A stretch of 64,000 nucleotides of DNA. It comes from Nannobrachium achirus (taxonomy: Eukaryota; Chordata; Actinopteri; Myctophiformes; Myctophidae). Numbering within the stretch: the first letter of the stretch is position 1; each line of letters starts with the position of its first letter. Of this stretch, positions 18,956 through 59,305 are shown one piece after another. Below the pieces are notes generated by a model, which was given only the letters and a program-made list of their open reading frames with translations, did no database searches and had not been told where the DNA came from. The DNA is taken from assembly GCA_963921795.1 (NCBI GenBank), contig OY997642.1, positions 3,064,444-3,128,443 of the forward strand, written 5' to 3'. A program made the position numbers and the translations under genes.

Positions 18956-19015
18956 ATGGGTGAATGGACACACTGTTTACAGTTTGGGATTCAACTGGCC
19001 AGGGAGGCTAGTCAG
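18956..19015 (+). CDS. impa1: Gene A coding exon 1
   Basis: Translates to [20 protein letters not shown], matching the amphipathic N-terminal helix of IMPases and the gene B start ([22 protein letters not shown]). It ends in phase 0 at donor CAG|GTACCTG. A possible acceptor, GGTTACAG, ends at 18930, so bases 18931-18955 would be 5' UTR of the same exon. A GT microsatellite begins about 40 bp after the donor. Confidence 0.85.

Positions 19016-59305: not shown

Follow-up and report, generated by a model that had tools for sequence, protein, structure and literature searches.

The DNA analysed here is a 64,000-nucleotide stretch of the Nannobrachium achirus genome (C5:3064444-3128443; 1.66 Gb in 564 contigs), hereafter referred to as the window. 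It carries two genes of the inositol monophosphatase (IMPA) type on the forward strand, designated gene A and gene B (Table 1), as an earlier note on this DNA had proposed from its letters; both consist of open frames, and both match the Pfam family Inositol_P (PF00459, curated cut-off 27), gene A with an E value of 1.2e-80 (271 bits) and exons 1-5 of gene B with an E value of 1.4e-52 (179 bits). The closest solved chains to gene A are those of IMPA1 (inositol monophosphatase 1). Exons 6-8 of gene B were not found in the sampled downstream sequence, 10 kb of which consists of N. The dN/dS ratio is 0.11 for gene A relative to its paralogue on C9 (exons 2-7) and 0.09 for gene B relative to the paralogue C21q (exons 2-5), so both genes look constrained, and coding constraint appears to persist in each. 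By their profile matches, intact frames, and coding constraint, A and B belong to the inositol monophosphatase genes, gene B as judged on exons 1-5.

Table 1. Genes A and B and the tandem arrays at their exon edges (window coordinates).
Feature	Position	Strand	Description	Basis
Gene A, IMPA-type	18956..36104	+	8 coding exons	288-aa open frame, AG/GT borders
Gene A exons 1-4	18956-19015, 21066-21199, 21343-21447, 22423-22468	+		
Gene A exons 5-8	23756-23864, 30090-30198, 32271-32422, 35953-36104	+	exon 8 ends in TAG	
22-bp array before A exon 5	23220..23748	+	ends 7 bases before the exon; abuts, no straddle	TRF
A exon 5 donor array (A5)	23823..24146	+	3 copies of 42 exon bases plus GT, 130-bp unit	TRF
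A exon 6 donor array (A6)	30168..30546	+	9 donors GGGTAAG, the first after 30198	TRF
A exon 7 acceptor pair (A7)	32209..32301	+	2 copies, diverged; the acceptors precede 32219 and 32271	
Gene B, IMPA-type, exons 1-5	42855..59305	+		153-aa open frame, AG/GT borders
Gene B exons 1-5	42855-42920, 52003-52136, 53862-53966, 56103-56148, 59197-59305	+		
B exon 2 donor array (B2)	52090..52231	+	3 copies of ~47 exon bases plus GT, the third shortened	TRF
B exon 3 acceptor array (B3)	53544..53888	+	169-bp unit present twice; the acceptors precede 53693 and 53862	TRF
57-bp array at B exon 3 donor	53967..54354	+	abuts, ~2 exon bases shared, no straddle	TRF
B exon 5 acceptor array (B5)	56320..59242	+	64-bp unit, AG in 28 copies, among them the true one	TRF

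Several other features were observed in the window and among related sequences. Intron 1 of gene B holds an intronless open kelch-repeat frame of 323 codons (window 47091-48059, + strand; Pfam KLHDC2/KLHL20-type kelch, E 6e-67), which resembles a retrocopied KLHDC3-like gene. Inositol_P matches in single long open frames at C9:43942194-43942958 and C4:26688760-26689620 are possibly intronless copies of the IMPA family. A GTGC-type microsatellite stands directly before the exon 6 acceptor both in gene A (window 29901-30071) and in the C9 paralogue, and perhaps predates the split of these two genes. At the far end, a 40-bp array of 22.5 copies (window 63100-64000) reaches the end of the window, and its continuation is N.

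Tandem Repeats Finder (TRF) returned 89 rows for the window, and a junction was called straddled when an array with a period of at least 10 and a score of at least 50 covered it. By this measure, head-to-tail units at least about 10 bases long lie over five of the 23 coding exon-intron junctions of genes A and B, namely the A5, A6, and B2 donors and the B3 and B5 acceptors, and the count rises to six if the diverged A7 acceptor is included. The repeated piece comprises the splice site plus 27-47 exon bases, and all five TRF-called arrays score well over shuffled flanks; for example, the A5 array, with donors after 23864, 23994, and 24146, scores 86 against a null maximum of 26. The donors of the B2 array stand after 52136, 52188, and 52231, and 28 of the 29 matching sites in the B5 array carry AG. 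The copying of exon edges together with their splice sites across junctions is real in this stretch, and the junction copies exceed chance similarity. All copy numbers given by the earlier note for these five junctions (three at the A5 donor, nine at A6, three at B2, two at the B3 acceptor, and about 28 at B5) held up. Its claim of two copies at the A7 acceptor stood in part: once intron bases are included, the diverged pair scores 37, the null maximum being 22, but TRF made no call, and the exon bases alone score 20, not above the null of 20. A second copy at the acceptor of A exon 2, listed there as possible, is only suggested by a 16-bp match (27 against 25 for the null) and stays doubtful. 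At least six straddled junctions had been claimed, a number reached when A7 is counted, whereas TRF gives five; the estimate that about half of the internal junctions are affected was too high, the proportion being nearer a quarter. Inspection by eye also revealed that the B5 array is interrupted by two alike, dispersed-repeat-like stretches (window 56406-56901 and 57098-57690), perhaps one insertion that was copied later along with part of the array.

The straddling arrays of the window place spare donors downstream and spare acceptors upstream of an intact exon, so that the true pair remains the nearest across the exon; the introns holding these arrays are 1.7-6.2 kb long. Splicing at a spare A6 or B2 donor is predicted to lead to a stop within a few bases, and splicing at the next B5 acceptor upstream to a stop after 33 codons; at A5, reading is open through all three copies, and the third is in frame. 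Given these stops, the true sites must normally be chosen if the genes are functional, and we infer that exon definition would make this choice. In a study of human alternative sites (PMC9225289), exon definition favours the sites with the shortest distance across the exon, downstream donors are preferred in all architecture classes before strength matching, and the preference for upstream acceptors is merely reduced under exon definition. Exons 2-7 (2-5 for gene B) are equal in length to those of three paralogues, and hence no intron gain is visible in the gene models. GT or AG is kept at 28/29 sites in B5 and 9/9 in A6, true ones included, and all 28 AG-bearing copies in B5 agree in the 10 bases that precede the acceptor. 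We considered the retention of splice sites among the spares as evidence of selection and dropped it, as it is uninformative at such low divergence.

Arrays whose period is at least 10 occupy 18.4% of the window; for two sampled downstream stretches on C5, the figures are 26% and 14%. Elsewhere, the coverage is 4.3% in the 30 kb directly upstream, 3.8% at the IMPA pair on C21, and 3.5% at the IMPA gene on C9. The array-rich block lies about 3 Mb from the contig end, yet the adjoining 30 kb upstream is array-poor. In the three IMPA paralogues on other chromosomes (C9 and C21), none of the 42 junctions lies in an array, and no exon edge has a copy. The next recognised gene downstream of the IMPA pair is presumably DNAJC1, whose exons were mapped with a human protein; nine of its junctions were sampled, from five of the six matched places in the block. 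Three of the nine are straddled: the exon 2 donor lies within an array in which the end of the exon plus GT occurs 10 times, counting the true site; at the exon that matches residues 118-179, the donor is duplicated together with 44 exon bases, and the start of the exon has a diverged copy upstream. The remaining six junctions showed no copy in the sampled flanks, which for four of these junctions extend just 40-117 bp. The three block genes sampled (A, B, and DNAJC1) therefore all carry straddled junctions, and since DNAJC1 is unrelated to IMPA, the effect is regional; an effect specific to IMPA is ruled out by the paralogues (0/42) together with this neighbour (3/9). As separate observations made by eye, a K-, E-, and Q-rich coding repeat, in frame, stands at the start of one DNAJC1 exon (L056 40-120), and the start-codon region of exon 1 has an apparent diverged second copy about 115 bp upstream (L052 ~4009-4060, 4124-4190).

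We then compared block and paralogue junctions by direct scoring. In the junction-spanning test, a junction counted when it scored at least 31, outscored each of 200 shuffles, and had 8 or more exon bases in the match, a cut-off that was chosen after the scores were known; 9/32 block junctions passed versus 0/42 in the paralogues (Fisher p 0.00025, or 0.0017 with one borderline control counted). When exon bases alone were scored, the counts were 7/32 and 0/42 (Fisher p 0.0019), with the DNAJC1 exon 2 donor (24) and the A7 acceptor (20) failing. The junctions set aside were, among the controls, the C9 exon 2 donor and C21p exon 7 acceptor (microsatellite only), the C9 exon 3 donor (28, null maximum 29), and the C21q exon 2 donor (33, 6 exon bases) and, in the block, the A exon 2 acceptor (27) and the DNAJC1 exon 2 acceptor (microsatellite). 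At one myosin locus (6.3 kb, L053), 0/12 homology-match edges lie in an array, these edges being approximate and not all of them splice junctions; the other myosin matches and those to aldehyde dehydrogenase were left out of this check. An origin of the arrays before gene duplication was rejected: the A5, B2, B3, and B5 arrays are without a counterpart in the other window gene (A6 and A7 fall outside the A-B comparison), and no window array has a counterpart in the paralogues.

The differences among copies bear on the history of the arrays. In most arrays the copies differ among themselves, and the two B3 acceptor copies are identical in their exon part. All five variable sites among exon bases 1-38 of 25 full B5 copies are at third codon positions, a tally that leaves out the indel-ridden bases 39-43 and two degenerate copies in which first- and second-position changes are present; likewise, all five differences in the DNAJC1 exon 3 donor copy are at third positions. 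The pattern in these two arrays would fit re-copying from an exon under coding constraint. The B2 donor copies show three second-codon-position differences from the exon. Across eight arrays (DNAJC1 exon 2 donor excluded), third positions account for 24/44 differences, which is above one third (p 0.003) and not above a half-and-half model (p 0.33); being compatible with the latter, the tally leaves renewal from the exon clear in only two arrays. At a codon that reads CTG in the exon, the A5 copies carry a valine codon (GTT or GTG), and the C9 gene likewise has valine there, so the A5 copies seem to preserve an older state of the exon.

Whether junctions are hit more often than the local repeat load predicts depends on the null. 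In a coverage null, in which junctions are rotated over the array map and expanded arrays are taken at full length, 3.70 of 23 junctions are expected versus five seen (p 0.34), and for six genes 6.39 of 68 versus six seen (p 0.62). When arrays are collapsed to one unit each, 0.7-1.3 are expected versus five seen (p 0.002-0.017, 16 settings). A second, copy-number-weighted null measures the share of 36-base intron segments that recur no more than 700 bp away: the rate is 6.8% in the IMPA span, 3.8-5.5% in other block stretches, and 0.8-2.8% in three stretches outside the block. After dispersed-repeat masking, the IMPA rate is 10.2%, or 8.4% without the straddling arrays; the mask, built by similarity to sampled sequence only, covers 37% of the genic span, a lower bound. 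With the straddling arrays left out, the rate of duplication is 8.2% both in intron sequence lying no more than 150 bp from an exon and in deep intron. Against the unmasked rate of 6.8%, 5/23 gives p 0.017 and 7/32 gives p 0.005; against masked rates of 8.2-10.2%, the values are 0.036-0.078 and 0.013-0.039, respectively. DNAJC1 alone (3/9) gives p 0.006-0.056 across the rates tried, and 3/60 exon-interior segments have a nearby copy. The excess over the copy-corrected nulls is thus 2-7 fold, with p 0.002-0.08 by choice of null and partly post hoc; as the five window cases were flagged beforehand, the p values flatter it. The earlier note had held that a straddling rate as predicted from local repeat density would speak against its proposal; the coverage nulls give such a rate, whereas the copy-corrected nulls leave an excess. 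We read junction duplication as a modest excess in which targeting is not demonstrated. Repeats of any period within 30 bp of a junction were found at 23/68 junctions in the six genes versus 12.4 expected (p 0.003). Those with a period under 10 were likewise counted within 30 bp of 13/68 junctions versus 4.9 expected (p 0.002), and none crosses any of the 68 junctions (2.9 expected).

Collectively, these results are best explained, with a probability of roughly two in three, by frequent untargeted local tandem duplication, whose junction-crossing products do little harm and so survive, some arrays being re-copied from the exon edge. The array density observed in the block suggests that tandem duplications of about 20-170 bp often arise and expand there, perhaps by slippage, unequal exchange, or end-joining, and that they would strike genes largely or wholly irrespective of splice sites. 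Duplications entirely within coding exons would mostly be purged, whereas those that cross a junction would place a spare splice site and a piece of exon on the intron side. Because the spare copies fall in the intron and the true donor and acceptor are still the nearest pair across the exon, the pair that exon definition would favour, junction-crossing duplications could survive; the resulting arrays may be nearly neutral, persist, and expand. Some would be renewed from an exon edge under coding constraint and remain recognisable for longer than free intronic arrays, and the survivorship of such renewed arrays can, we infer, account for the modest junction excess.

Two explanations that give exon edges a special role appear rather unlikely, to about the same degree. 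The first, raised by the earlier note, is a mutational process in the block aimed at exon edges or splice sites, which might be coupled to transcription or splicing, for example through RNA-DNA hybrids at donors or templated repair. The excess over the copy-corrected nulls and the straddled junctions of the separate gene DNAJC1 speak for such a process; however, near-exon intron is duplicated no more often than deep intron, the IMPA paralogues show nothing of the kind, the coverage nulls find no excess, and the first five cases are post hoc. The second explanation holds that an active process limited to the region preferentially duplicates exon edges in any gene of the block, with arrays that grow from the constrained exon copy and archive its past synonymous states. 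It is very unlikely that selection retains the spare splice sites or uses them for stop-containing transcripts that tune IMPA expression, and the redundancy suggested by the earlier note is unsupported. The spares nearly all keep GT or AG, the bases before the B5 acceptor are uniform, and A5 stays open through its three copies, but retained dinucleotides are weakly informative at low divergence, the B2 donor copies carry second-position changes, and the A6, B2, and B5 spares lead into stops; moreover, the paralogues are without straddling and do not share the copies, and an unrelated gene is affected. Although tandem repeats are a known source of misassembly (PMC6868369), an assembly error that inflated or created the copies is just as improbable, given a 564-contig genome in which the contigs of the sampled loci span 53-79 Mb, copies that differ from one another in most arrays (the B3 exon parts are identical), and a longest uninterrupted run of about 1.55 kb.

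Minisatellites and tandem duplications at exon-intron boundaries are a known kind of event. Variable internal tandem repeats (minisatellites) have been described at such boundaries in human segmental-duplication genes (De Grassi & Ciccarelli 2009, PMC2812944) and resemble the N. achirus arrays in having minisatellite-size boundary units in recent paralogues, some of which are spliced out of the transcript. The human repeats create novel introns or exon changes with transcript support, whereas in N. achirus the exon is intact in the gene models, the splice sites lie within the repeated piece, copies number up to 28, and the effect is regional, the paralogues elsewhere being without arrays. Intron gain through tandem duplication across an intron-exon boundary has been reported for potato RdRp (Ma et al. 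2016, PMC4974935), and the B3 and B5 acceptors have the same boundary-crossing geometry; in potato a new intron arose in the duplicated region, whereas no new intron is visible in the N. achirus gene models. Atlantic cod and Nothobranchius furzeri also have tandem-repeat-rich genomes (PMC5241972, PMC2688266), and N. achirus is like them a fish with a heavy tandem repeat load; the passages on these two species contain no description of junction-straddling arrays. The cod text (PMC5241972) has no word starting with 'splice' or 'exon', and the Nothobranchius furzeri text (PMC2688266) has 'splice site' twice, outside those passages. A literature search of titles and abstract openings found no description of several straddled junctions in neighbouring genes.

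The locus cautions that the local repeat density is the needed baseline before a process targeted at exon edges is claimed. It also indicates that purifying selection on a gene is compatible with 28 acceptor copies, or with 9-10 near-identical donors, beside a conserved exon, and it offers a natural testing ground for exon definition in the choice of splice sites and for the possible route from junction-crossing duplications to new introns.
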